Origin: Pseudomonadota bacterium
GTDB lineage: Bacteria; Pseudomonadota; Alphaproteobacteria; Dongiales; Dongiaceae
NCBI GenBank assembly: GCA_021792365.1
Contig: JAJYUT010000002.1
Coordinates: 388,313-452,312 of the forward strand
DNA: 64,000 nucleotides
Reading direction: 5' to 3'
In this document: in pieces, positions 22,625 to 37,369 of the stretch
Layout of the letters: every line of letters starts with the position of its first letter
Numbering within the stretch: the stretch's first letter is position 1
Translations under genes and position numbers: made by a program
Notes under the pieces: model-generated
Seen by the model: only the letters and a program-made list of their open reading frames with translations
Database searches by the model: none
What the model was told of the DNA's origin: nothing

Positions 22625-25363
22625 ATGGGCGACGCGACCATGCCGAACCGCCATCTTAGCGATCCGCCGGCAACGAGTCTCTCCCAGGAGCCGCCGCGCG
22701 TGGAGCGGCCGCAAACCGGCGCGATGCGCACGCTCGTGGACCTGCTCGATCGCTGGCGCGGCAACAATGCGCCGGCGGTCATCGTCGACCGCGAGGGCGA
22801 GCCGGAGGTTGCGACCTATGCCTGGCTGGCGGAGACCGCGACGAAGCTTGCCGCCGGATTGCGCGCTTCAGGCATTGGGGCGGAGGATGCCGTTGCAATC
22901 CTGGCGCCGAACACGCCCGCCTGGATCGCCGCTTACTTCGGCATCGTTGCGACGGGCGCAACCGCCGTTCCGCTGGACTATCACAGCGCGGCATCCGACC
23001 TCGAAGGCATGCTGGCGCGCAGCCGGTGCCGGCGGCTGTTCGCCAGCGCCGCCGCCCTGGAGCGCTTGCCGGAATCCTGGGTCGGGGGCGCCGAAGCGAT
23101 CTACGTTCTCGACGCATTCGAAGCAGGACCGGACAAGGCGAAGAGTTGGACTGTCCTGTGCGAGAGGTCGCCCGAAGCGACCCTGCCCACGATCCAGCCA
23201 GAGATGCGGGCATCCCTGCTCTTCACCTCTGGCACGACGGGCACGCCCAAGGCGGTGCCGCTGACCCACAGCCAGTTCCTGTCCAACGTCAACGCCCTGT
23301 TCGCCGCGAATCTGGTGCAGCAGGGCGACCGGGTGCTGCTGCCGCTCCCGCTGCATCACACCTATCCCTTCACCGTTGGCATGCTGACCAGCCTTGCCAT
23401 CGGCGCGACGCTGGTCTTTCCCGGCGGCGCGACCGGGCCCCAGATCCTGCAGGCCGCGCGCAACGAGGCGGTGACGGCGATCATTGGCGTGCCCGGCCTC
23501 TATGGCGCCATGGTCAATGCCATCGAAGCCCGCATCAAACGGCGCGGCCGGCTCGCCCAATCCCTGTTCGGCGGCCTGCTCGCGCTGTCGGTCTTCCTGT
23601 GCCGCAGGTTCGGCCTGCGCATCGGGCGATACCTGTTCGCGCCCCTGCATCGGGAATTCGGCGGCAAGCTGCGCGTGCTGAGTTCCGGCGGCGCCAAGCT
23701 CGACCCGCAGATCGCCTGGAAACTGGAGGGCCTCGGCTGGCGGATTCTCACCGGCTACGGACTGACCGAGACGGCGCCGATCCTCACCTTCAACGCCCCC
23801 CATAACGCGCGCATCGGCACGGAAGGCAAGCCGATCCCCGGCGTGCAACTGCGCACCATTCCCGTGGAGGGCAGCGAATTCGGCGAGGTCATCGCCTCGG
23901 GCCCCAGTGTCTTCTCCGGCTATCTCGACAATCCCGACGCCAACGCCGAGGCGTTCGCGGAGCCTGGCTGGTTCCGCACCAAGGATCTCGGCTTCGTGGA
24001 TCAGGATGGCTACCTGCACATCGTCGGGCGCGCCAACGAGACACTGGTCCTGCCGGGCGGCAAGAAGGTGCTCCCGGAGGACATCGAGAAGCACTACGCC
24101 GCCATTCCCTTCATCAAGGAGATCGCGATTCTCCAGCACAAGAACGCGCTGGTCGCGCTGGTCGTGCCCAATCCCGAGGCGATCCGCACGCGCGGTGCGA
24201 CGCGCCTCGAAGCGCTGCTGCGCGAGGAGATCGAGCACGCCGCTCCAACGCTGCGCCCCCACGAGCGCATCTCCGGTTATGCCGTCACAATCGAGGCCCT
24301 GCCGCGCACGCAGCTCGGCAAGCTGAAGCGGCATCTCCTGCCCGGCATCTATGAGCAGGCGAAAGCCGGCAAGCGCCAGAAGCCGCAGGTCGAACTGGGG
24401 GCAGAAGACAAGGAACTGCTCGCGCGGCTGGACGTCAAGCCGATCTGGGATTGGCTGGTGGCGCGCTATCCCGATCAGCCGCTCTCGCCCGAAACCAGCC
24501 CGCAGCTCGATCTCGCAATCGATTCCCTGCAGTGGATCGAGCTCACGCTCGAATTGCAGGAGCGTTTCGGCGTGCGGCTGAACGAGGCCGCGATCGGACG
24601 CATCCTCTCGCTCCGCGACCTGCTGACCGAAGCTGCCCAGCAGCGCTCAGGCGCTGCGCCGCTCGAACCGGCGCCCGATGCCATGGCATGGGTGCGGCCG
24701 ATCGGCATCGGCCACAAGATTTTCGGCGTCGTTCTCTATGGCTTCGACGTGGCGCTCGCGCGACTGATGTTCCGCTTGGAGGTAATCGGGAAGGAGAACC
24801 TGCCGGCGGAGGAGCGCATCGTCCTGACGCCCAACCATGTCAGCTATCTCGATCCGATCCTGCTGGCCGCCGGTTTCAGCCTGCGCGATCTGCACCGCAC
24901 CTGCTGGGTCGGCTGGTCCGGCATCGTGCTGGCCGGGCCCATCATGCGGCTCATCACACGAACCGCGAACATCCTTCCGATCGATCCCGACCGCGATCCC
25001 GCCGCGACGCTGATCCTGCTTGACACCGCGTTGCAGACCAAGAAGCGCCTGGTCTGGTTCCCGGAGGGCCGCCGCTCCCCCACCGGAGCGATCACAGACT
25101 TTTTACCGGGCATCTCCCTGGTGCTGGAGCGCACCGGCGCCAAGGCCGTGCCGGTGCATATCAGTGGCGCCTACGAAGCCTGGCCGCGCTCCCGCACGCT
25201 GCCGCGCCCGCACAAGGTGACGATCCGTATCGGCACGCCGATTAGCGCGGCAGAGTTGGCCGAACGGGGGGATGGCGCGAACCGCCACGCGCGTATTGCC
25301 AACGCGCTTCAGAAGGAAGTCGCAGCCCTTGCGAGCGAGACAGCGCCCAAGACCGACGGCTAA
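22625..25363 (+). CDS. Three-domain fusion: acyl-AMP ligase, acyl carrier domain, PlsC-type acyltransferase
   Basis: A 912-residue multidomain lipid enzyme. Residues about 35-575 are an AMP-forming ligase (P-loop TSGTTGTPK at 201-209; GYGLTET at 377-383; KTDLG-like RTKDLGF at 451-457). Residues about 595-670 form an acyl carrier domain whose predicted phosphopantetheine site is S634 in LAIDSLQW. Residues about 690-900 are a lysophosphatidate-type acyltransferase with NHVSYLD (737-743) and FPEGRRS (812-818). The architecture suggests activation of a fatty acid, loading on the built-in carrier and direct transfer to a lysolipid or other acceptor, like Aas but with an internal ACP. Start ATG at 22625 or 22640. 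Its stop overlaps that of the convergent MttB-like gene. Confidence 0.88.
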   Translation: MGDATMPNRHLSDPPATSLSQEPPRVERPQTGAMRTLVDLLDRWRGNNAPAVIVDREGEPEVATYAWLAETATKLAAGLRASGIGAEDAVAILAPNTPAWIAAYFGIVATGATAVPLDYHSAASDLEGMLARSRCRRLFASAAALERLPESWVGGAEAIYVLDAFEAGPDKAKSWTVLCERSPEATLPTIQPEMRASLLFTSGTTGTPKAVPLTHSQFLSNVNALFAANLVQQGDRVLLPLPLHHTYPFTVGMLTSLAIGATLVFPGGATGPQILQAARNEAVTAIIGVPGLYGAMVNAIEARIKRRGRLAQSLFGGLLALSVFLCRRFGLRIGRYLFAPLHREFGGKLRVLSSGGAKLDPQIAWKLEGLGWRILTGYGLTETAPILTFNAPHNARIGTEGKPIPGVQLRTIPVEGSEFGEVIASGPSVFSGYLDNPDANAEAFAEPGWFRTKDLGFVDQDGYLHIVGRANETLVLPGGKKVLPEDIEKHYAAIPFIKEIAILQHKNALVALVVPNPEAIRTRGATRLEALLREEIEHAAPTLRPHERISGYAVTIEALPRTQLGKLKRHLLPGIYEQAKAGKRQKPQVELGAEDKELLARLDVKPIWDWLVARYPDQPLSPETSPQLDLAIDSLQWIELTLELQERFGVRLNEAAIGRILSLRDLLTEAAQQRSGAAPLEPAPDAMAWVRPIGIGHKIFGVVLYGFDVALARLMFRLEVIGKENLPAEERIVLTPNHVSYLDPILLAAGFSLRDLHRTCWVGWSGIVLAGPIMRLITRTANILPIDPDRDPAATLILLDTALQTKKRLVWFPEGRRSPTGAITDFLPGISLVLERTGAKAVPVHISGAYEAWPRSRTLPRPHKVTIRIGTPISAAELAERGDGANRHARIANALQKEVAALASETAPKTDG

Positions 25364-26928
25364 ACGTTGCTGTCCGGAACCGCGGCCTTCTTCTTCGCGA
25401 TGAACTCCTGCAGCGCCTCGTCGGTCGCGGGATCGAGCGCGGGCGCCTCGTATTCGGCCAGCATCTTCTTGTAGAGCTTGTTGGCGCGCTGGGCGGCGTC
25501 CTGGCGGCCTTCGGCCTCCCACTGCTCGAAGCTGTTGTTATCGGCGATGCTCGAGCGATAGAACGCCGTCTCGAAATTCGCCTGGGTGTGGGTGCAGCCG
25601 AGGAAATGGCTGCCCGGCCCTACCTCGCGGATGGCGTCGAGCGCCTGGCCGTTGTCCGAGAGGTCCACGCCCTTCGCCAGCACCTGCATCATGCCGAGCT
25701 GGTCGGCATCCATCACGAACTTCTCGTAGCCGGAGGCAAGCCCGCCCTCCAGCCAGCCTGCGCCATGCAGCACGAAGTTGGTGTTGGCGAGCAGGGTCGG
25801 CAGGAGGGTCTGCGCGCTTTCATACGCGGCCTGGGCGTCCGGCACTTTCGAGCCGCAGAGAGAGCCGCCGGTGCGGTAGGGAATGCCGAGGCGGCGCGCG
25901 AGCTGACCGCAGGCGAACGAGACCAAGGTCGGCTCCGGCGTGCCGAAGGTCGGCGCGCCGGACTGCATTGAGATGGAGCTGGCGAATACGCCGAAGATCA
26001 CCGGCGCGCCGGGCTTGTAGAGCTGGCAGGTGCCGGCGCCGGCGAGCACTTCCGCCAGCACTTGGGCGATGGTGCCCGCTGCCGTCACCGGGCTCATCGC
26101 GCCCGCCAGGATGAAAGGCGTGGTGATGCAGGCCTGGTTGGCGCGCGCATAGACCTTCATCGCGCCCAGCATCGTGCCGTCCCACACCATCGGCGAGTTG
26201 GCGTTGATGAGGCTGGTGATGACGGTGTGCGTCTCCAGGAACTTCTCGCCGAACGCGATCCTCGCCAGCTCGACCGTGTCGGCCGCGCGCTCAGGCGCCG
26301 TCACCGAACCCATGAACGGCTTGTCGGAATACTTGATGTGCGAATAGACCATGTCGAGGTGACGCTTGTTCACCGGCAGGTCCACCGGCTCGCACACCGT
26401 GCCGCCCGAATGGTGGATCGACGGCGACATGTAGGCGAGCTTCACGAAATTGCGGAAATCCTCGATGGTCGCATAGCGGCGCCTGTCATCCAGGTTGCGC
26501 ACGAAAGGCGGGCCATAGACCGGCGCGAACACGGTGTTGTTGCCGCCGATCGTTACGTTGCGCTCCGGATTGCGTGCATGCTGCACATATTCGCGTGGCG
26601 CCGATTTCTGGATGATGGAGCGCGGCAGGCCGCGCGGGAAGCGGATGCGCGTGCCCTTCACGTCGGCACCGGCCTGCTTCCAGAGCTCCAGCGCTTCCGG
26701 CTCGTCGCGGAACTCGATTCCGACCTCCTCGAGGATGGTGTCGGCGTTGCGCTCGATGACCTCCAGCCCCTCCTCGCTCAGCACCTCATAGATCGGGATG
26801 CGGCGGGAGATGAAGGGGTTCTGCACCAGCTTCGGCTTGTTGCGGAGGTGCCGCCGGGCCTCGGCGCCGCCGCCGCCACGACCGCGGCGTCCGCCGCCCT
26901 GCTCGGCGCTGGATTCTGCGATAGCCAT
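25360..26928 (-). CDS. MttB-superfamily methyltransferase (non-pyrrolysine)
   Basis: A 522-residue member of the trimethylamine methyltransferase superfamily. The family transfers a methyl group from a quaternary or tertiary amine to a corrinoid protein. Typical segments include GIEFRDEPEALELWKQAG, NSPMVWDGTMLGAMKVYA and the long barrel region GAMSPVTAAGTIAQVLAEVLAG. The frame is open through the region where true MttB uses an amber/pyrrolysine codon, so this belongs to the non-pyrrolysine branch that includes glycine betaine and related methyltransferases. The N-terminus has a Gly/Arg-rich tail (about 10-30). No cognate corrinoid protein is in the window. It is divergent from a DMGDH-like gene, supporting betaine-type substrates. 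Confidence 0.87.
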   Translation of the reverse strand: MAIAESSAEQGGGRRGRGGGGAEARRHLRNKPKLVQNPFISRRIPIYEVLSEEGLEVIERNADTILEEVGIEFRDEPEALELWKQAGADVKGTRIRFPRGLPRSIIQKSAPREYVQHARNPERNVTIGGNNTVFAPVYGPPFVRNLDDRRRYATIEDFRNFVKLAYMSPSIHHSGGTVCEPVDLPVNKRHLDMVYSHIKYSDKPFMGSVTAPERAADTVELARIAFGEKFLETHTVITSLINANSPMVWDGTMLGAMKVYARANQACITTPFILAGAMSPVTAAGTIAQVLAEVLAGAGTCQLYKPGAPVIFGVFASSISMQSGAPTFGTPEPTLVSFACGQLARRLGIPYRTGGSLCGSKVPDAQAAYESAQTLLPTLLANTNFVLHGAGWLEGGLASGYEKFVMDADQLGMMQVLAKGVDLSDNGQALDAIREVGPGSHFLGCTHTQANFETAFYRSSIADNNSFEQWEAEGRQDAAQRANKLYKKMLAEYEAPALDPATDEALQEFIAKKKAAVPDSNV

Positions 26929-27234: not shown

Positions 27235-29796
27235 ATGGCTGAGTTTCCGGAGAAGGCGAAGGTCGTCGTCATCGGGCTGGGCGGCATCGTGGGCGCGTCG
27301 GTCGCCCATCACCTGATCGCGCGCGGATGGGACGATATCGTCGGCATCGACAAGTCGGGAATCCCGACCGATATCGGGTCAACCGCGCACGCCTCCGACT
27401 TCTGCTACACGACCAGCCACGATTTCCTGTCCTGCTGGACGACCCTCTATTCCATCGATTTCTACGAGAAGCTGGGCCACTACGAGCGCATCGGCGGCCT
27501 TGAGGTCGCCCGCGTCGGCGACGACGCGCGCATGGACGAGATCAAGCGCAAGGTGGCTTCGGCCAAGGCCTTCGGCACGCGTGCGCGCCTGATCGGCCCC
27601 GCCGAGATCAAGAAGAAGTTTCCCCTGATCGAGGAAGAGGTGGTGCAAGGTGGCCTGTGGGACCCCGACGCCGGCCTCGTCATCCCGCGCTCCCAGACCG
27701 TCGCGGGCAAGCTGGTCGAGCAGGCGGAGCGTTCGGGCAAGCTCAAGGTCTTCGCGAACACCCCGGCCAAGTCGCTGGTCATCGAGAATGGCCGCATCAA
27801 GGGCGTGGTGACCGAGCGCGGCACCATCAAGGCGGACTACGTCGTGGTCTGCGCGGGACTGTGGGGCCGGTTGATCGCCGAGATGGCGGGCGAGGATCTG
27901 CCGGTCATGCCGGTCGACCATCCCCTCACCTTCTTCGGGCCGTATACCGAGTTCGCCGGCACCGGCAAGGAGATCGGCTGGCCGCTGCTGCGCGACCAGG
28001 GCAACTCCGCCTATATGCGCGACACCGGCGATCCGACCACCTCCGAAGGCGGCATGATCGAATGGGGCTACTACGAGGAGAAGAACCCGCGTCTCTGCCA
28101 TCCGCGCGACATCATCGAGAAGCACGAGGCGCGGCTCTCGCCCTCTCAGCGCGATCTGGACATGGAGCAGATCCTCGAGCCGCTCGAGCGCGCCATCGAG
28201 CTGACGCCGATCCTGGGTGAGCTCGGATACGAGGAGAAGCGCTCCTTCAACGGCCTGCTGCAGGTGACCGCCGACGGCGGCCCTTCGATTGGCGAAAGCC
28301 AGAAGGTTCGCGGGCTGTGGTACTCCGTCGCCATCTGGGTCAAGGACGCACCCGGCATGGCCAAGCTCGTGGCCGACTGGATGACGGACGGACGCACGCC
28401 GATTGACCATGCCAAGATAGACTACGCCCGCTTCTATCCGCACCAGATGGAACCGAAGTTCATCGAGGGCCGCTGCACCGAGGCGGCGCAGAAGGTCTAT
28501 AATCCCGCCGTCCATCCGCGCGAGCCTTACGCCACTGGCCGCAACGTGCGCCGCTCGCCGTTCCATGAGCGCGAGAAGGCGCTCGGCGGCTACTTCATGG
28601 AGCTCGGCGGCTGGGAGCGCGCCCATGGCTATGCCGCCAACGAGCACCTGCTGAAGAAATACGGCAACCGCGTGCCGGTGCGCGAGAACGAGTGGGACAG
28701 CCGCCATTTCTGGCGCGTCTCCAATGCGGAGCATCTCGCCATGAGCGAGGATTGCGGCATCGTGAACCTGTCTCACTTCTACATGTTCGATGTCGAAGGG
28801 CCGGATCACGTCGCGCTGATGGAGTGGCTGTGCGCCGCCAAGATCGGCGGCGACAACAACATCGGCAAAGGCATCTACACGCATTTCCTCGACGATGAAG
28901 GCATGGTGCGCGCGGACCTGACCGTCATCCGCATGGCCGACCGCTGCCGCGTGATCGACGGCGCCGATGCCGGGCCGCGCGACTTCCACTACGTGCGCAG
29001 GATGGCGCAGGACAAAGGCTTCGATGTAACGGTGACCGACGTGACGGAGAAATACGTCACGATCGGCATCTGGGGCCCGAACGCGCGCGTGACGCTCCAG
29101 AAGGTCGTCGAGGACCCCAACGGCCTCACGCACGAGAACTTCCCCTTCGCCGCGATCAAGCCGATCAGGATCGCCGGCAGGAACGTGATCGCCTTCCGCA
29201 TCTCCTATGTCGGCGAGCAGGGCTGGGAGCTGCACATGCGCTACGAGGACGGCCTGGCCGTCTGGGACGCGCTGCGCTCGACCGGCGTGATGGCGTTCGG
29301 TGTCGAGACCTACGCCAACAGCCGCCGCATGGAGAAGAGCCTGCGCCTGCAGAACGCGGACCTCTTGACCGAGTACAACCTGCTCGAGGCCGATTTGCAG
29401 CGCCCGAAGGTCAAGGAAGCCGATTTCCGCGGCAAGGCCAAGCACCTGGAGCATCGCGCCCGCAAGCACCAGCCGGCCATGCTGTGCACGCTGGTCATGA
29501 CCAGTAACATCGATTCCAAGGGCGTCGCGCGCTACCCGGTCGGCACCATGCCGGTGATGGATCCGCAAACCGGCGAGGCCTTGGTCGATGAGCTTGGCCG
29601 CCGCTCCTTCACCACCTCGGTCGCCTATGGCCCAACCATCGGCAAGAACATCGCCCTCACCTACCTGCCCTGGTCGTACTGCCAGGAAGGCCGCAAGCTG
29701 ATCGTGGAGTATTTCGGCGAGACCTATCCGGTCGAGGTTGCCGGCATCGGCTACAAGCCGCTCTACGACCCGGAGAACCTGAAGCCGCGAACGTGA
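27235..29796 (+). CDS. FAD-dependent dimethylglycine/sarcosine dehydrogenase-like protein with GcvT domain
   Basis: An 853-residue two-part enzyme. The N-terminal half is a DAO-type flavoprotein with GLGGIVGASVAHHL (14-27) and a GSTAHAS segment (H52 sits where related enzymes attach FAD covalently). The C-terminal half is a GcvT/aminomethyltransferase-like tetrahydrofolate domain (about 440-840), containing YVGEQGWELHM and a C-terminal barrel with GVARYPVGTMPV. Such proteins oxidatively demethylate dimethylglycine, sarcosine or similar amines and pass the one-carbon unit to tetrahydrofolate. Its opposition to an MttB homologue suggests successive demethylations of a betaine. Start ATG at 27235. 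Confidence 0.88.
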   Translation: MAEFPEKAKVVVIGLGGIVGASVAHHLIARGWDDIVGIDKSGIPTDIGSTAHASDFCYTTSHDFLSCWTTLYSIDFYEKLGHYERIGGLEVARVGDDARMDEIKRKVASAKAFGTRARLIGPAEIKKKFPLIEEEVVQGGLWDPDAGLVIPRSQTVAGKLVEQAERSGKLKVFANTPAKSLVIENGRIKGVVTERGTIKADYVVVCAGLWGRLIAEMAGEDLPVMPVDHPLTFFGPYTEFAGTGKEIGWPLLRDQGNSAYMRDTGDPTTSEGGMIEWGYYEEKNPRLCHPRDIIEKHEARLSPSQRDLDMEQILEPLERAIELTPILGELGYEEKRSFNGLLQVTADGGPSIGESQKVRGLWYSVAIWVKDAPGMAKLVADWMTDGRTPIDHAKIDYARFYPHQMEPKFIEGRCTEAAQKVYNPAVHPREPYATGRNVRRSPFHEREKALGGYFMELGGWERAHGYAANEHLLKKYGNRVPVRENEWDSRHFWRVSNAEHLAMSEDCGIVNLSHFYMFDVEGPDHVALMEWLCAAKIGGDNNIGKGIYTHFLDDEGMVRADLTVIRMADRCRVIDGADAGPRDFHYVRRMAQDKGFDVTVTDVTEKYVTIGIWGPNARVTLQKVVEDPNGLTHENFPFAAIKPIRIAGRNVIAFRISYVGEQGWELHMRYEDGLAVWDALRSTGVMAFGVETYANSRRMEKSLRLQNADLLTEYNLLEADLQRPKVKEADFRGKAKHLEHRARKHQPAMLCTLVMTSNIDSKGVARYPVGTMPVMDPQTGEALVDELGRRSFTTSVAYGPTIGKNIALTYLPWSYCQEGRKLIVEYFGETYPVEVAGIGYKPLYDPENLKPRT

Positions 29797-30002: not shown

Positions 30003-31319
30003 ATGGGAGCTGGTACTCCGCCACTCAACGATGCCTTGCGCATTTCCGTGCGCGAACAGCGAAACACCGATTCAGTCCTCCGCATCGCCTCGTTCACGCT
30101 CGCCGCGGGACCGGTGAGTGTATTCTACAAGATCACGGGAGAAGTCCTGCCGCCGCCGCTGGAAGTTCTCGACTTCGCACTGGTGGCCGCGATCCATGTC
30201 GCGATGCGCGAAGGCCGCCCGGTGCACGTCGAAGGGCCGGTGACGGGCGCCCTCCTCCGCAGCCTTGAGGAATACCAGGAAATCTGGGCGCTGTGGCGAC
30301 GGACGTACCGGCGCGTCCAGATCAGTGCCGATCAGGTTGTGTCGTCAACGGTTATCGACGACCGGCACGGGGTGTTCGCGATCTCCGGCGGCGTCGATGG
30401 CGCCTTCGCATTGCTGAAGCATCATTCCGGTCTTGCAGGCCCGCGCAATGTGCGCCCCGCCTGTGCCATGTTCGTGCATGGATTTGACATTCCGCTTCAT
30501 GAGCAGGCCGCCTTCGGCCGGGCCCGCGACGGCATCGTCGAAATGGTTGCCCCGCTCGGCGTGCCTGTGACGATCGTGGAGACCAACTGGCGCGAAGCGC
30601 TCGGCCGGGACTGGGCCATGGATTGTCAGGTGGCACTCACCGCCTGTCTTCACCAGTTCCGGGGTGCCGCCAATGTAGGCGTCTGCGGCGCGGCCGACGA
30701 TTATGCTCATATCACCGTTCCGCTGGGCTCCAATCCGGTCACCAATCACCTGCTGTCCGGCGGCGGCTTTGACATCATGACCGAAGGCGGAGCACTCACT
30801 CGGACCGACCGCGTGCGCGCCCTCTGCGATCACCCGCAGATCGCGGCGAAGCTGCGCGTCTGCTGGGAAGGTCCAAAGACCGGCAGGAATTGCGGGCGCT
30901 GCGAGAAATGCATCAGGACCAAGCTCAACTTCATGGCGGTCGGGAGCGCGCCGCTCTGTTTCGATGGCCCACCCACCTTTCTCGACATTCTGCGTATTAA
31001 GCTGCATGAGCCGAGCCAGGTGCAGTTCCTGCGGGAGATTGTGGCCGCCGCCAAGGCAAATGATGTCCGCGGTGCATGGCTGGTCGCCTTGCGACTGGCG
31101 ATGGTGAAGAACAAGCTGGTGCTGCGATCCATGGCCCTGGAACGCCGCATCAGGAAGGTGCGTTACGTCCCGCGCACCATGCCGAGAACGGCCGATCCGC
31201 GGGACGCCACGCCGCACGGAGGCGTTTCGCCAACCTCTGCTGCCGCCAAAACGCGGATAGCTGAGCGCGGCGGCCTCAATCGCCGGGTGACGGCCGCCCG
31301 GCGGGTCACCGATTTGTAA
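30003..31319 (+). CDS. PP-loop ATPase-like protein with QueC-like zinc site, copy 1
   Basis: A 438-residue protein that I cannot name. Residues 128-134 read SGGVDGA, close to the PP-loop SGGxDS of N-type ATP pyrophosphatases but with Gly for the last Ser. Further on are C287, C297, C300 and C303 (CWEGPK..., then CGRCEKC), the same C-x(8-9)-C-x2-C-x2-C layout as the QueC zinc site. GSNPVTNHLLS (242-252) may line the active site. The N-terminal about 120 residues have no recognised fold and the last about 80 are basic and low in complexity. A GGAGG site precedes the ATG. A paralogue follows after 143 bases. I infer an adenylating amide or nitrile-forming type of chemistry; substrate unknown. 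Confidence 0.6.
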   Translation: MGAGTPPLNDALRISVREQRNTDSVLRIASFTLAAGPVSVFYKITGEVLPPPLEVLDFALVAAIHVAMREGRPVHVEGPVTGALLRSLEEYQEIWALWRRTYRRVQISADQVVSSTVIDDRHGVFAISGGVDGAFALLKHHSGLAGPRNVRPACAMFVHGFDIPLHEQAAFGRARDGIVEMVAPLGVPVTIVETNWREALGRDWAMDCQVALTACLHQFRGAANVGVCGAADDYAHITVPLGSNPVTNHLLSGGGFDIMTEGGALTRTDRVRALCDHPQIAAKLRVCWEGPKTGRNCGRCEKCIRTKLNFMAVGSAPLCFDGPPTFLDILRIKLHEPSQVQFLREIVAAAKANDVRGAWLVALRLAMVKNKLVLRSMALERRIRKVRYVPRTMPRTADPRDATPHGGVSPTSAAAKTRIAERGGLNRRVTAARRVTDL

Positions 31320-31372
31320 CGCTTCGGCCAAGCAACACGCTGCTATTTCAAACACTCCCGTTCGCACCGGCT

Positions 31373-31414
31373 TGACACGTCATGTCATTTCCGGCGCACG
31401 GAGTCCGGTGCGCC
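31373..31414. promoter_or_regulatory. Two dyads in the gap between the PP-loop paralogues
   Basis: TGACA-CGTCA-TGTCA (31373-31387) is a perfect five-base inverted repeat that overlaps a TTGACA -35-like element. It is followed by GGCGCAC-N8-GTGCGCC (31393-31414), a perfect seven-base hairpin. The first looks like an operator or promoter for copy 2, the second like a terminator without T-run or a leader hairpin. Together they suggest copy 2 can be transcribed separately. Confidence 0.45.
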
Positions 31415-31462
31415 ATTCACACCAGATCTGCGGCGCTACCTGTGGGATAGGATCGGGGGACG

Positions 31463-32671
31463 ATGACCGAGACCTTGCGCATTTCCGTCCACGAAGAACG
31501 GAACGCCCATTCGGTCGTGCGGACGGCGCTCTATCATTCGCCGGCCGGCTTGCGCCGCGTCTTCCATCAGCTCTCCGGCGACATCCTCCCGCCCCCCCTG
31601 GAAGTCTATGACTTTGCCGTCGTGGCGGTGGCATTCGCCGCCATGCGCGAAGGGCGACCGATCCATGTCGAAGGCCCGGTGACCGCGGAACTGCTGCGCA
31701 ACCTGGAGGAGTTCCAGGAGGCCTGGGCGATGTGGCGGTCGGCCTACCGGCGCGTCCAGATCACCGCCGATCAAGTCCTCCCGCCTCAGCAGATGTCGGC
31801 CCGGTGCGGCGTATTCGCCCTCTCCGGTGGGGTCGACGGCACCTTCGCCCTGTTGCGGCACCATAGCGGCCGGGCCGGCCTGCGCACCGCGCCGCCGGTA
31901 TGCGCCATGCTCGTGCAGGGGTTCGACATACCGCTGGACAATCAAGCGGCGTTCGAGCGTGCGCATGGCAGCATTTCCGACGTGATGCGCGCACTTGGGG
32001 TTCCGCTGGTCACGGTTCGCACCAACTGGCGGGAACAGCTTTGCAAGGACTGGCTCATGGAGTATCACGCCGCGCTGACTGCCTGCCTTTTCCAGTTTCG
32101 CGGACTTGCGAATGTCGGCGTGTGCGGCGCGGGCGAGGATTACTCGCAACTCGTCGTTCCCTGGGGATCGAACCCGGTCACCAATCACCTGCTGTCCGGC
32201 GGCGGATTCCAGGTGCATACGGAAGGCGCTGGATTCACCCGAACGGAGCGCGTCCGCCTGATCTGCGACTATCCCGAAATCGCCGCGAAGCTTCGCGTCT
32301 GCTGGGAAGGTCCGAAGACCGGCGGCAATTGCGGCCGGTGCGAGAAGTGCATCCGGACCAAGCTGAATTTCTTGGCCAACCGGCAGGAGCCGCTCTGTTT
32401 CGACGGCAGGCCGACCCGCGCCCAGATCCTCGGCCTGACCGCGCGCAACCAGGTCCAGCTCGCCTTCCTGAGCGAGATATTGGCGTCCGCCAGGAAGAAC
32501 GGCGCAAGCGGGCCATGGCTGGAGAGCCTTCGGCTGGCCATCGCGAAAAACCGCGTCATGCTGCCGGCCCGCAAGCTGGGGTGCCGGATCGCAAGCAGAA
32601 TCCGGCCGCTGCTCGGCAGCCAGGCCGTCGCGCGCAGATCGCGGCCCGTCCTCCAGCCTGGACAGAAATAG
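31463..32671 (+). CDS. PP-loop ATPase-like protein with QueC-like zinc site, copy 2
   Basis: A 402-residue paralogue of the preceding gene, similar over nearly the whole length. It repeats the altered PP-loop SGGVDGT (121-127), PWGSNPVTNHLLSGGGF and the four-cysteine cluster C280, C290, C293, C296. The shared N-terminal motif LPPPLEV (near 42) and NWRE (near 188) are also kept, so these are family-wide features. The C-terminal tail differs from copy 1. Its stop codon directly abuts the stop of the convergent flippase gene. The function is unknown; keeping both copies with intact motifs suggests two related substrates or a heteromer. Confidence 0.6.
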   Translation: MTETLRISVHEERNAHSVVRTALYHSPAGLRRVFHQLSGDILPPPLEVYDFAVVAVAFAAMREGRPIHVEGPVTAELLRNLEEFQEAWAMWRSAYRRVQITADQVLPPQQMSARCGVFALSGGVDGTFALLRHHSGRAGLRTAPPVCAMLVQGFDIPLDNQAAFERAHGSISDVMRALGVPLVTVRTNWREQLCKDWLMEYHAALTACLFQFRGLANVGVCGAGEDYSQLVVPWGSNPVTNHLLSGGGFQVHTEGAGFTRTERVRLICDYPEIAAKLRVCWEGPKTGGNCGRCEKCIRTKLNFLANRQEPLCFDGRPTRAQILGLTARNQVQLAFLSEILASARKNGASGPWLESLRLAIAKNRVMLPARKLGCRIASRIRPLLGSQAVARRSRPVLQPGQK

Positions 32672-34237
32672 CTAGCGCTTCAGCGCCCGCGCGCGAAACG
32701 CCTTCACATGGCTGCGGGCAATCGCCCGCGCCTCGCCGGAGATCGCGTAGATCAGCACGCCATACGTCACCATGCCGGTCGCCACGCAGATCGCAATCGG
32801 CATCAGGCCGTTCGAGAAGCGCGGCTGCAATGCATCCATGAGGGCCCACACGACGGCGCCCATGACCAGCGAAGCCAGCAGCGGCTTGGCGATCGCGCCG
32901 AGCGCGTCCTGCGGCCGCAGCCCGGAGGCGCTGCGCAGCATCCATAGCTGGAACGGCAAGGCCAGGTAGGCGCGCACGACGTTGGCGCAGGCCACGGCGA
33001 TCAGGCCGAAGGGCGCCGCGGCGAGCGCAAAAGCCACGGTGGAGACCAGTTGACCGAGGGCGAAGGTGCGCAGCGTCCCGGCCCGGCCCAGCGCCATCAG
33101 CATCGGCGAGGTGAAGCTGGACAGCGCGTAGGGCACCACCATAAGGCACATGATCTGCACCAGCGCGCCCGATGTCTCCCACTTCTCGCCGAAGATCGTG
33201 GGGATCGCCTCCGGCGCCAGCACGCCGAGCCCGACTAGCGCCGGACAGCTCAGCATCGCGCTCTTCGAAACCATCCAGCGATACGCCTTGATCAATTCCG
33301 TGCTGTCGCTCTGCAGGCGGGACAGCGTCTGCAAGGCGACGAAGTTGAACGGATTGACGGTGCCGGCGAGGACGAGCTCGGTGGTGCGCCGCGCCGTTCG
33401 ATTGAGGCCGACCGCGGCGGCGCCGATGATGGAGCCCAGGATGAGGTCCATGGCCCGGCGCGGCAGCAGGCTCAGCACCTGGTGCAGGGCGATGTTGAAC
33501 CCGAACGCCCAGATCGCGCGCAACTGCGGCACGGAGAAGTTGCGGCCGGGAAGCCAGGGATAGGCGTGCCACGACATGATGGTGTTGGCCGCCTCCGTGG
33601 CGAGGCGCTGCACCACCAGCGCCCAGATGCCCCATCCCGCGAGCGCCGCGGCGATGCCCGCCGCGCCGCCGATCGTACCGCTCACCACCGATCGCAAGGC
33701 CAGGGACTTGTGGCCGAACTCGCGCAGGCGCAGCGACAGATGCGTCGCGCCGAGCGCAGCGAGCGGCAGCACGAAGCCCAGCCCCTGCACCGGCCCGGTG
33801 GCACGGGAAAGCTCCAGCATCGCCATCACGGGCGGCGCCAGCAGCAGGACCGCAAAGGCCAGGACCAGCGACGAGACCAGGTTGGTCCAGAACACCGTGT
33901 CGGCCAGCGCCGGCGTCAACTTCTTGGCGCGCGGAATGTTCTGCACCATGCCGCCGATGGCGATGGCCCGGCCGATCTCCGCGACTGCCTGTGCGATTGC
34001 ATAGATGCCAAAGTCCGCAGGCGAGAGCAGCCGCGCGAGAACAACGAAAACGACGAAAGCGAACACCTGGTCGGACAGGATGCGCAGTATCGTCCACAGG
34101 ATCGACCAGCGCGTCTTCCTTCTCAGTGTGTCGTTGTAGGATGCGGGCTTGTCGTCGTCTGGATCGGTGGGCTTCCTCAACTCGGAGCGCCTGGTGTTCT
34201 TTTGCGGCGCCGGTGGCTTGCCCGAAAGGATCGTCAT
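32672..34237 (-). CDS. Wzx-like polysaccharide flippase (MOP/MVF superfamily)
   Basis: A 521-residue membrane protein with about 12-14 hydrophobic segments after a charged N-terminal tail of about 40 residues. The first helix and loop (FAFVVFVVLARLLSPADFGIYAIAQAV) match the polysaccharide biosynthesis/O-antigen exporter family, which flips lipid-linked oligosaccharides across the inner membrane. No glycosyltransferases, polymerase or chain-length regulator lie nearby apart from the ELM1-family gene, so it is not a full capsule locus. It is convergent with the PP-loop pair and divergent from the ELM1-type gene. Confidence 0.85.
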   Translation of the reverse strand: MTILSGKPPAPQKNTRRSELRKPTDPDDDKPASYNDTLRRKTRWSILWTILRILSDQVFAFVVFVVLARLLSPADFGIYAIAQAVAEIGRAIAIGGMVQNIPRAKKLTPALADTVFWTNLVSSLVLAFAVLLLAPPVMAMLELSRATGPVQGLGFVLPLAALGATHLSLRLREFGHKSLALRSVVSGTIGGAAGIAAALAGWGIWALVVQRLATEAANTIMSWHAYPWLPGRNFSVPQLRAIWAFGFNIALHQVLSLLPRRAMDLILGSIIGAAAVGLNRTARRTTELVLAGTVNPFNFVALQTLSRLQSDSTELIKAYRWMVSKSAMLSCPALVGLGVLAPEAIPTIFGEKWETSGALVQIMCLMVVPYALSSFTSPMLMALGRAGTLRTFALGQLVSTVAFALAAAPFGLIAVACANVVRAYLALPFQLWMLRSASGLRPQDALGAIAKPLLASLVMGAVVWALMDALQPRFSNGLMPIAICVATGMVTYGVLIYAISGEARAIARSHVKAFRARALKR

Positions 34238-34554
34238 GCACGGACCTTGTAGTGTTCACGCGCGCCGCTCCCGTCCTGGCCGCGGCGCGGGACCCTGTTA
34301 CCAGATCGCCTACCAACCGGAAAGTCGTCGCGCCGCAGGAACGGTCCGTCCTCTCACAGGTCACCGCGCCGTGCGCCGATGTCACAAGGATGAAACAGGA
34401 AGGCCAAAGTCCTCGCCGGAGATGCACGGTGAAACCACTTTCACAAAGGGGATGAAATCCTGCGCCCCTTGTCATTGCGATTCGGCATCCACACTTAAAT
34501 GCGATGCGCGCAGATGTGCGCTGACTGTTCAGGCTGAGCGATTAAGGTTCCGAC
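34238..34554. promoter_or_regulatory. Divergent region between the flippase and ELM1-family genes, with two dyads
   Basis: This 317-base region contains GTGAAA-CCAC-TTTCAC (34429-34444, perfect) and, immediately after, AAGGGG-N13-CCCCTT (34446-34470, perfect). The first resembles a repressor operator; the second is a potential hairpin in the leader. The part from about 34480 to 34554 is visibly AT-richer and probably holds the promoter of the ELM1-family gene. No gene seen. Confidence 0.45.
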
Positions 34555-35721
34555 TTGCATTCGACATTTCAGCCTACGATTTGGGCTCTTCTGACGCAGG
34601 CCCCGGGCGACAACGATCAGTGCCTGGCACTGCTGGAGGCGGTCGACCGCCCAACCGAGATCAAGCGGCTGGACTGGTCCGTGACTGATGCGGAGGAAGA
34701 GCGCGCGATCACGAAGGAATTGTTGTCGGACAGTCCCGAAGCGCGACAATGGCGCGCGATGCTCGGCTTGTGCCCGCCATGGCCGCGCCTTGTGATCTGC
34801 TGCGGGCGGCGTTCGGACCGTGTGGCGTTCTGGATCAAGGAGCAATCGGGCGGCTACACCAGGATTGTATCGATCGGTCGCCCGCGCAAGGCGGTTGCGG
34901 CCTATGACCTGGTGATCGCCCTGCCTCAGTTCTCCGTGCCCGATCGCGCAAACGTCGTAAAGCTGCCTCTGCCGATGATGCGGCAGCGGTCTTCGGCGGG
35001 CGACGCCCACGCGCACCGCGCGAGCGTTCCGGTGCCGAAGCCGTGGTTCACGATTCTGCTAGGCGGCGAGGTCAAGCAGTTCGCGACGTCGCGCCGCGTG
35101 CTGATCGAGGCCGCGCGGCTGGCCCAGATGGCGGCGCACCATCACGACGGCTCGGTCGTCATCTCCACCTCCCGCCGCACGTCGCCGGCCCTGCTGGCGG
35201 CGGTGGAAGGGGTACTGGAGCGCCCCTACGTCTATCGCTGGTCCGGCGGGACGGCGGAGAATCCCTACGAGCGGTTGCTGCGGGAATCCGCGGCCCTGTT
35301 CGTGACGGCGGACAGTGCGTCGATGATCCTCGATTGCTGCGCGTCGGGCACGCCGACCTATGTGATCGAATATCCCGAGCGATTCGAACTACGCGCCCGC
35401 TTGCGCCGCGGGATGTTCCGGCGCGTGCGCGGGGTGATCGCCCGGTTCCGTCACTGGGGCTTCCAGCAAACCGGCGATCAACTGGAGCAGGCCCAGGAAT
35501 GGCTGCACGCGCGGCACGTCCTGCGCTACCCGCGGGACCTGCGGCAGTTCCACGCCTCGATCTACGACATGGGGCTGGCCCGCCCCGTCTCGGCATACGA
35601 TCCCGCGATCCTGCCCCGGCCGCGCCGTCCGGCGAACGATCTCGTCAAGGCCTCGGGCATTCAGGCGGTGGCCGCACGATGCCGGGCGCTGCTGCGACCT
35701 CCAGCCATCGCCGCGGAATAG
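34555..35721 (+). CDS. ELM1/DUF1022 (mitochondrial fission ELM1-like) family protein
   Basis: A 388-residue protein of the ELM1 family, predicted to have a GT-B glycosyltransferase-like fold. It begins with the family signature IWALLTQAPGDNDQCLAL. The central part has LVICCGRRSDRVAFWIK and LLGGEVKQFATS, and the acidic/Ser segment VTADSASMILDCCASGTPTYVIEYP matches the nucleotide-sugar site of GT-B enzymes. The start is a TTG at 34555, preceded by AAGG at a suitable distance; an in-frame stop at 34543 excludes a longer protein. Bacterial members often sit in lipopolysaccharide or envelope loci. A hairpin with a T-run follows its stop. Confidence 0.72.
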   Translation: MHSTFQPTIWALLTQAPGDNDQCLALLEAVDRPTEIKRLDWSVTDAEEERAITKELLSDSPEARQWRAMLGLCPPWPRLVICCGRRSDRVAFWIKEQSGGYTRIVSIGRPRKAVAAYDLVIALPQFSVPDRANVVKLPLPMMRQRSSAGDAHAHRASVPVPKPWFTILLGGEVKQFATSRRVLIEAARLAQMAAHHHDGSVVISTSRRTSPALLAAVEGVLERPYVYRWSGGTAENPYERLLRESAALFVTADSASMILDCCASGTPTYVIEYPERFELRARLRRGMFRRVRGVIARFRHWGFQQTGDQLEQAQEWLHARHVLRYPRDLRQFHASIYDMGLARPVSAYDPAILPRPRRPANDLVKASGIQAVAARCRALLRPPAIAAE

Positions 35722-35797: not shown

Positions 35798-37369
35798 TCA
35801 GATCTCGTTCTTTCCCATCTTGTCCGCGATGTAGTCCGCCTGCCGGATCGCCAGCGCTACGATGGTGAGCGTGGGATTCTCCGCCGCCCCCGTCGTGAAC
35901 TGGCTGCCGTCGGAGATGAACAGGTTCGCGATGTCGTGAGTCTGGCCATGCTTGTTCACCACGCCGTCGCTCGCCTTCCCGCTCATGCGGTTGGTGCCGA
36001 GATTGTGCGTGGAGGGATAAGGCGGCGTGCGGAATGTCTGCACCGCACCCACGGCTTCGTAGACGGCGCTCCCCTGCTTGTAGGCGTGCTCGCGCATCGC
36101 GATGTCGTTGGGATGATCATCGAAATGCACGTTGGGCACCGGCAGGCCGTATTGGTCCTTCTCGGTCGCATGCAATGTGATGGCGTTCTTCTCCTGCGGC
36201 ATGTCCTCGCCCACGAGCCACATGCCGGCCATGTTGGCATAGCCTTCCATGGCGCTGCTGAAATCGCGGCCCCAGGCTCCGGGATCGAGGAACGCCGCCA
36301 TGAACGGCACGCCGAGGGAGAGCGTCTCCATCTCGTAGCCGCCGACGAAGCCGCGCTCCGGCTTGTTCTCCGCCTCGTCCTTGATGATGCCGGCCATGGT
36401 CGTCCCGCGGTGCATGTGCACGGGCTTGTCGAAGATTGCATAGACGGATCCCGTCATGTGGCGCATGTAGTTCCGGCCGACCTGGCCCGAGGAGTTCGCG
36501 AGCCCGTCGGGGAACTTCGCCGATGCCGAGTTGAGCAGCAGCCGCGGACTCTCGATCGAGTTGCCGGCGACCGCCACCACGCGCGCCTTCTGAACATGTT
36601 GATTGCCGTCTTTGTCGGCATAGAGCACGCCCGTCACCTTGCCGGAATCATTGTGCTGGATCTGCAGGGCCTGGCTGCTGGGCCGCACTTCCATGTTGCC
36701 GGTCGTCTCTCCCTTGGGGATCTCGGTATAGAGCGTCGACCACTTCGCGCCGGACTTGCAGCCCTGGAAGCAGAAGCCGATCTGCTGGCAGGCGCCACGC
36801 CCGTCGCGCGGCTGCGAGTTGATCGCCATGTTCCCGGTGTGGAAGTCCTTGTAGCCGAGCTTCTTCGCGCCGGCGGCGAGAACACGGAAATTGTTGTTGC
36901 CCGGCAGGCGCGGGATGCCGTGAGTGCCGGTGACGCCCATCTTGTCTTCCGCGCGGTCGTAATAGGGCTCCATCTCGGCGAGCGAGATCGGCCAGTCGAG
37001 CAGATTGGCGCCGGCGATATCTCCATAGGCCGATTTCACCCTGAACTCATGCTCCTGGAACCGCAGCGAAGCGCCGGCCCAATGCACCGTCGATCCGCCG
37101 ACCGCCTTCACGATCCAGGCCGGCAAGCCGGAGAAGTCCTTCGCCACGCGCCAGCTTCCCGAGGTGGTGCGCTTGTCGAGCCAAGAGATCTGGCTGAACA
37201 TGCCCCACTCGTCGTTGCTGAAATCCTCGATCTCGTGCCGGCCGCCTGCCTCCAGCAGCACGACCTTCACGCCCTTCTGCGCCAGCTCGTTGGACAGCGT
37301 TCCGCCGCCCGCGCCCGAGCCGATCACCACCACCACGCTGTCGTCGTTCAGTTCGAATTTCGCGGCCAT
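35798..37369 (-). CDS. GMC oxidoreductase, gluconate 2-dehydrogenase flavoprotein subunit-like
   Basis: A 523-residue FAD-dependent alcohol or sugar dehydrogenase subunit. The dinucleotide motif is VVIGSGAGGGTLSNEL (14-29). Other family features are GGSTVHWAG, the Cys-rich stretch CQQIGFCFQGCKSGAKW and the C-terminal catalytic His/Asn region STHNLGTNRM with GAAENPTLT. It lacks its own signal and is probably carried across the membrane with the Tat-bearing small subunit encoded 15 bases upstream. Electrons should pass to a cytochrome c; one is encoded nearby (38922). The substrate could be gluconate, sorbitol or another polyol. Confidence 0.87.
   Translation of the reverse strand: MAAKFELNDDSVVVVIGSGAGGGTLSNELAQKGVKVVLLEAGGRHEIEDFSNDEWGMFSQISWLDKRTTSGSWRVAKDFSGLPAWIVKAVGGSTVHWAGASLRFQEHEFRVKSAYGDIAGANLLDWPISLAEMEPYYDRAEDKMGVTGTHGIPRLPGNNNFRVLAAGAKKLGYKDFHTGNMAINSQPRDGRGACQQIGFCFQGCKSGAKWSTLYTEIPKGETTGNMEVRPSSQALQIQHNDSGKVTGVLYADKDGNQHVQKARVVAVAGNSIESPRLLLNSASAKFPDGLANSSGQVGRNYMRHMTGSVYAIFDKPVHMHRGTTMAGIIKDEAENKPERGFVGGYEMETLSLGVPFMAAFLDPGAWGRDFSSAMEGYANMAGMWLVGEDMPQEKNAITLHATEKDQYGLPVPNVHFDDHPNDIAMREHAYKQGSAVYEAVGAVQTFRTPPYPSTHNLGTNRMSGKASDGVVNKHGQTHDIANLFISDGSQFTTGAAENPTLTIVALAIRQADYIADKMGKNEI

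Follow-up and report, generated by a model that had tools for sequence, protein, structure and literature searches.

What reaction is carried out by two tandem PP-loop proteins whose genes adjoin that of a Wzx-type flippase? We addressed this question for a window of 64,000 nucleotides (contig JAJYUT010000002.1, positions 388,313 to 452,312) from a bacterium of the Dongiaceae with a genome of 5.43 Mb; "the window" denotes this whole stretch, and the two proteins are termed PP1 and PP2. They belong to an unnamed family of which no published description was found in the literature searched, and "undescribed" is meant in that sense. Our tentative answer, which we rate somewhat short of an even chance, is that these proteins use ATP to activate a carboxylate of an envelope sugar, which would yield an amide (or a joined amine) before export by the flippase.

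Two tandem paralogues and their predicted fold

The two genes and their motifs are located as follows.

30003-31319, plus strand: PP1, predicted QueC-fold PP-loop protein, first paralogue, 438 amino acids (open reading frame list, family matches, sub-threshold Pfam matches)
30384-30401, plus strand: altered PP-loop SGGVDG of PP1, residues 128-133 (motif scan)
30861-30911, plus strand: four-cysteine cluster C-x9-C-x2-C-x2-C of PP1 (motif scan; cysteines invariant in the 134-row family alignment)
31463-32671, plus strand: PP2, predicted QueC-fold PP-loop protein, second paralogue, 402 amino acids (open reading frame, family matches, structure model, fold match)
31463-31798, plus strand: N-terminal domain of PP2, about residues 1-112, with strands and helices in RNase H-like order
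31823-31840, plus strand: altered PP-loop SGGVDG of PP2, residues 121-126 (motif scan)
32300-32350, plus strand: four-cysteine cluster of PP2, a predicted metal site (motif scan; family alignment)

An earlier note on this DNA had described two tandem paralogues with an SGGVDG loop and cysteines spaced 10/3/3, and all of these features are present as described. PP1 and PP2 share 61% identity in local alignment, and PP2 shares 82% with a protein of the alphaproteobacterium Dongia deserti, the closest named relative in the protein search. The paralogues are identical at 33 of 33 compared positions, cysteines included, both keep the conserved residues checked, and the first cysteine lies 154 residues past the end of the PP-loop in each. 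Among the 177 stop-to-stop stretches of at least 150 amino acids in the window, the cysteine pattern (first gap of 7-11 residues allowed) occurs only in PP1 and PP2, both of which also hold SGGxD; the combination is therefore not a matter of chance.

For PP1 and PP2 we predict a fold like that of QueC and QatC, in which the four cysteines hold a metal, zinc by analogy. The PP2 model has a Rossmann-like PP-loop core with a C-terminal cysteine site, as in the QueC superfamily, and N- and C-terminal extensions around this core, which is the layout of QatC. QatC is also the top structural row for the model, with 295 aligned residues (model 1 to 362) and a root-mean-square deviation of 5.1, as calculated on a prediction by one aligner. 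Neither protein is QueC itself, in agreement with the earlier note: although the QueC fold is predicted, canonical QueC (PF06508) was rejected at 10.8 and 11.6 bits against a gathering cut-off of 22. PP1 and PP2 carry an extra N-terminal domain and SGGVDG in place of the SGGxDS loop of QueC (serine is found in 61 of 195 family rows). Compared with the QueC motifs reported in PMC13329287, their cysteine motif C(x)9CxxCxxC is one residue longer than C(x)8CxxCxxC, and YPDC and YxQxHxxE are absent from the family consensus. Some carriers of the family also lack matches to other queuosine-pathway models. DUF6395 (PF19932) matches a stretch of only 30-40 residues over the cysteine cluster, below threshold (20.8 bits for PP1 and 17 for PP2, cut-off 25), and no paper on it was found in the literature search.

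The residues G123, D125, R260, C280, N289, C290, C293, E294, K295, C296 and R298 are invariant in 134 aligned sequences, and SGGxD, TNxR, PxGSxP, an invariant arginine and VC...NCGxCEKCxR are constant across the family. At the sixth position of the PP-loop, glycine occurs in 95, serine in 61, alanine in 38 and X in 1 of the 195 aligned rows, a redundant set that includes both window proteins more than once; the SGGVDG loop pointed out earlier is thus one variant among several. The blocks LPPPLEV, NWRE and GSNPVTNHLLS, which had been taken as conserved, all occur in both proteins; LPPPLEV is local to the clade of the window and not family-wide.

Of 7,998 candidates scored against PP2, 694 match at E≤1e-3; where source names were readable among the 120 matches listed, all were "hypothetical" or "uncharacterized". 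A genome scan found 230 stretches encoding relatives, the best 80 of which (79 loci) were kept for locus analysis and fall in Pseudomonadota, Cyanobacteriota, Planctomycetota, Acidobacteriota, Verrucomicrobiota, Actinomycetota and others; 18 plasmid records add Azospirillum, Gloeothece, Priestia, halophilic archaea and others. The archaeal member on plasmid pHTUR04 of Haloterrigena turkmenica has glycosyltransferase, polysaccharide deacetylase and epimerase genes nearby (locus L091). The distribution is patchy. Ten of 398 sampled Pseudomonadota genomes, the window's included, hold a member at E≤1e-8, a count that may be low because at most four candidates per genome were scored. Among 61 genomes of relatives (the window's own counted), three carry the family, all in the window's genus; no member was found in a fourth genome of this genus, which is 68% complete, or in 13 other genomes of the taxonomic family. 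One congener (G003; L007, L008 and L009) has three other, distant members in addition to the pair; one of them (C15) lies about 1 kb from a PF04230 gene.

Genes around the family

Homologue clustering and Pfam revealed polysaccharide pyruvyl transferase (PF04230), GT2, GT4, flippase, EpsG, WecG and nucleotide-sugar genes as recurrent neighbours. Hidden Markov models were built from clusters in the best 80 of the 230 loci, with genes called by our own simple script, and 37 stretches from carrier genomes served as controls (40 were asked for; 2 were shorter than 20 kb). Pyruvyl transferase (43/83 loci), GT2 (48/83), flippase (15/83) and asparagine-synthase-like genes (13/83) were found in none of the 37 controls, and GT4 in 34/83 loci and 3/37 controls. 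ABC transporters are not enriched (17/83 versus 9/37).

Removal of 18 near-duplicates (12 Psychrobacter-type, 4 Oxalobacteraceae-type, 1 Sulfuricurvum and 1 Aliagarivorans) left 65 loci, some of them cut by contig ends. At least one of six polysaccharide-type families is present in 48 of these, pyruvyl transferase in 30 (within 300 bp in 17), the asparagine-synthase-like gene in 13 (12 of them no more than 300 bp from the family gene) and the flippase in 10 (within 300 bp in 6). The asparagine-synthase-like proteins have SGGxDSR in 13 of 13 cases and the Met-Cys start for glutamine hydrolysis in none; a glutaminase-bearing AsnB-type gene occurs in 6 of the 65 loci. The asparagine-synthase-like protein, of about 600 amino acids, gives the unit of the family gene a second PP-loop enzyme (L023, L024, L027, L030, L040, L058, L059, L069, L080, L081 and others).

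The same models were applied to a separate Pseudomonadota sample of 15 loci from 9 genomes (3 stretches shorter than 20 kb owing to contig ends), with 20 controls drawn from 8 of these genomes (G269 gave none, and the controls of G223 and G426 lie on other contigs than the targets). Polysaccharide families were found in 7/15 loci versus 2/20 controls, which is weaker than in the main set, and the flippase in 6/15 versus 0/20.

The remaining features of the window are listed below.

27235-29796, plus strand: dimethylglycine-dehydrogenase-like gene, on the PP1 side of the cassette
32672-34237, minus strand: Wzx-type flippase, convergent with PP2 (PF13440, E 4.3e-64; 217 bits, cut-off 23)
34555-35721, plus strand: ELM1-family protein, probably an interchangeable neighbour (PF06258, E 4.7e-45; 154.5 bits, cut-off 27)
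35798-37369, minus strand: GMC oxidoreductase gene, on the ELM1 side of the cassette

The GC content of the cassette (66.0%) and of the window (65.7%) gives no hint of recent foreign DNA. Upstream of the cassette, the dimethylglycine-dehydrogenase-like gene and an MttB-family methyltransferase gene (PF06253, E 1.8e-231; 25360-26928, minus strand) are methylamine/betaine-type genes.

The flippase had been said to come next after the paralogues. It does directly abut PP2, with zero bases between the two frames, but it lies tail to tail on the minus strand and so is not next in an operon. Flippase homologues also adjoin family genes in Dongia, Sphingomonas, Herminiimonas and a metagenome-assembled genome of the Chromatiales, and the family proteins of the first three (Herminiimonas with one row) form one clade (support 95/86). 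Sphingomonas cavernae (L018) is one of the flippase cases, and in Azospirillum brasilense a pyruvyl transferase neighbours the family gene. A conserved unit of four genes including ELM1 is not supported: among 88 loci searched (nine with flanks too short to show one) an ELM1 homologue occurs only in L011, and in D. deserti the gene next to the flippase encodes a sulfotransferase instead. What does recur in the neighbourhood is the polysaccharide genes and, in a minority of loci, the flippase.

Tandem copies from Dongia, Sphingomonas, L025, L077 and Priestia group by lineage in the tree; tandem pairs thus arose more than once. In L025 and L211, tandem family genes stand beside a polyhydroxybutyrate (PHB)-depolymerase-type gene (PF06850), with the modelled glycan genes not in reach.

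Proposed reaction and the evidence that bears on it

The amide-formation reading follows from the PP-loop aspartate and the four-cysteine site in a predicted QueC-like core, the surface-sugar loci and, often, another amide-forming relative nearby; a fold of this kind points most naturally to ATP-dependent acid chemistry. ATP would be split to AMP and pyrophosphate. The acceptor would be an acidic sugar, either a uronic acid or the carboxylate of a pyruvate ketal made by a PF04230 enzyme of the kind frequently encoded next to the family, and the nucleophile would be ammonia or a small amine. After activation of the carboxylate, the amide would be made or the amine joined, and the completed glycan would then be carried over the membrane by the flippase. 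PP1 and PP2 probably have related acids as substrates, or else combine into a heteromer. A precedent for the product class is WbpS, an asparagine-synthase-type enzyme reported to amidate uronic acids of known surface glycans (PMC7468200, PMC6025236); the enzyme class would be new.

Several observations weigh against this proposal. We infer the substrate and activity of PP1 and PP2, and the fold comparison has weak points: no match at E≤0.001 came from Foldseek by itself, the Z score does not separate the QatC rows from those of QueC, QatC sequence profiles give hardly any match, and the PP-loop lacks the last serine, which in QatC is described as helping to bind the ATP phosphates (PMC13279940). 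The flippase is present in a minority of family loci, and its convergent orientation does not imply co-expression with PP2. Among the ten window neighbours scanned there is no glycosyltransferase and no pyruvyl transferase; the genome does hold glycosyltransferase and PF04230 genes at other places. In the separate sample, 8 of 15 loci lack every polysaccharide family modelled; pyruvyl transferase is found in 1/15 and the asparagine-synthase-like gene in 0/15. Around six of those eight loci, none of the neighbours checked bears a name that obviously points to glycans; they include an ethylbenzene-dehydrogenase-type protein, a PHB depolymerase, an amino-acid permease, a response regulator and a Hint-domain protein.

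A broader proposal, which we regard as unlikely, is that proteins of this QatC-like layout are acid-capping enzymes of surface glycans across bacteria and archaea, forming an amide or even a nitrile on sugar acids, and that prophages carry them near tail fibres and thereby alter the receptor glycan of the lysogen. Eight IMG/VR contigs have a family member confirmed by tblastn, and a DNA pattern scan found 12, four of them beyond these eight; a search of 50,697 phage records gave no member at E≤1e-3. On 5 of 7 tested contigs (L204, L205, L206, L208 and L210) the family gene has tail-fibre, tail or baseplate genes no further than about 4 kb away, and L207 is a weak tail-type case (E 8e-6). In L203 a flippase frame overlaps the end of the family gene, and there is a sub-threshold beta-helix match as well. 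L209 has the gene layout of L208, and L206 is the Rhizobium sp. LCM 4573 locus L044. The vicinity of tail-fibre genes is a usual place for prophage cargo that alters the host surface. The position fits a glycan role and equally a role in modifying a tail protein, the chance rate of such nearness not having been estimated.

Competing explanations and implications

Among the alternatives, a protein-modifying ligase like QatC or Cap9 survives best, although we consider it improbable. Such an enzyme would join a small acid to the N-terminus of a partner protein; defence and phage tail fibres are possible settings. The rank of QatC as top structural row, aligned over most of the length, and the tail-type genes on viral contigs speak for it; the absence from the phage records and the glycan neighbours that dominate the main locus set speak against it. 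The qat defence system was rejected, as the PADLOC QatC model matches neither PP1 nor PP2 at E≤1; among four other family members tested, one gave E 0.023. Cysteine spacing and PP-loop ending differ from those of QatC, the family neighbours are glycan rather than defence genes, and the N-terminal domain compares with that of QatC at a profile probability of 0.1%. No KAP ATPase or TatD was found among the window neighbours scanned with Pfam; qatB was not searched for. The reaction of QatC itself is described as unresolved (PMC13279940). Cap9, from the type IV cyclic-oligonucleotide-based antiphage signalling system, is reported to have a median length of about 185 amino acids and carboxydeazaguanine as substrate (PMC13329287); no CD-NTase is among the family neighbours identified with Pfam.

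Carboxydeazaguanine is probably not a general substrate of the family, a further point against the ligase reading, since several carriers lack PTPS and QueE matches; uptake of a precursor was not tested. The window's genome (G000) has no match to QueC, to the PTPS family of QueD or to the QueE model used, and the organism thus seems to lack de novo queuosine synthesis and probably makes no carboxydeazaguanine de novo. For comparison, PF06508 matches occur in 79 of 80 sampled Pseudomonadota genomes, some of them weak matches to other PP-loop enzymes. PTPS is absent from 10 of 34 carriers. Six of these (G000, G003, G072, G074, G081 and G085, among 11 genomes searched for QueE) also lack a QueE match, as judged by a single model that matches 8 of 14 control genomes and exceeds its cut-off in 1; four of the six have no completeness figure.

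More doubtful still is a pseudoenzyme of glycan loci, in which the SGGVDG form has lost catalysis and serves as a scaffold or regulator. The missing serine in the window's clade gives this reading its footing: G or A replaces the last PP-loop serine in 133 of 195 rows, and the change goes with the flippase-linked clade, as a flippase lies within 3 kb in 5/7 dereplicated genome loci with G, 1/12 with A and 2/42 with S. Against loss of catalysis, the 134 sequences show no variation at the PP-loop aspartate, at one glycine, at R260 or at the four cysteines, and almost none at the first serine and the other glycine, and both tandem copies in four loci keep these residues.

We give little credence to an amidine-forming enzyme like WbpG/NASAT, which would act on N-acetyl groups rather than carboxylates. 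The superfamily and the kind of pathway are common to both, and NASAT is reported as a PP-loop enzyme of surface-glycan synthesis with a zinc tetracysteine (PMC10607449). Its cysteines (Cys44, 47, 79 and 82) precede the loop at 122-127 in that description, whereas those of PP1 and PP2 follow it. PP1 and PP2 have no Pfam or NCBIfam match to an N-acetyl sugar amidotransferase. No stand-alone glutaminase subunit is among the recurrent neighbours identified with Pfam, and the AsnB-type gene is confined to the 6 loci given above. A sulfur-inserting enzyme like LarE, TtuA or MnmA is very improbable, as its structural Z score is lower than that of the QueC group and the recurrent neighbours identified include no sulfurtransferase.

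Known roles of the QueC fold are the synthesis of a tRNA base and, as found recently, protein tagging in phage defence. If the amide-formation reading is true, envelope-sugar acids would be a third substrate class for this fold, also in carriers seemingly unable to make carboxydeazaguanine, and many "hypothetical proteins" of polysaccharide loci would gain a role. The reading also predicts a glycan modification that nuclear magnetic resonance could detect. As a large related family, these proteins would also help to show what function QatC-like layouts serve.
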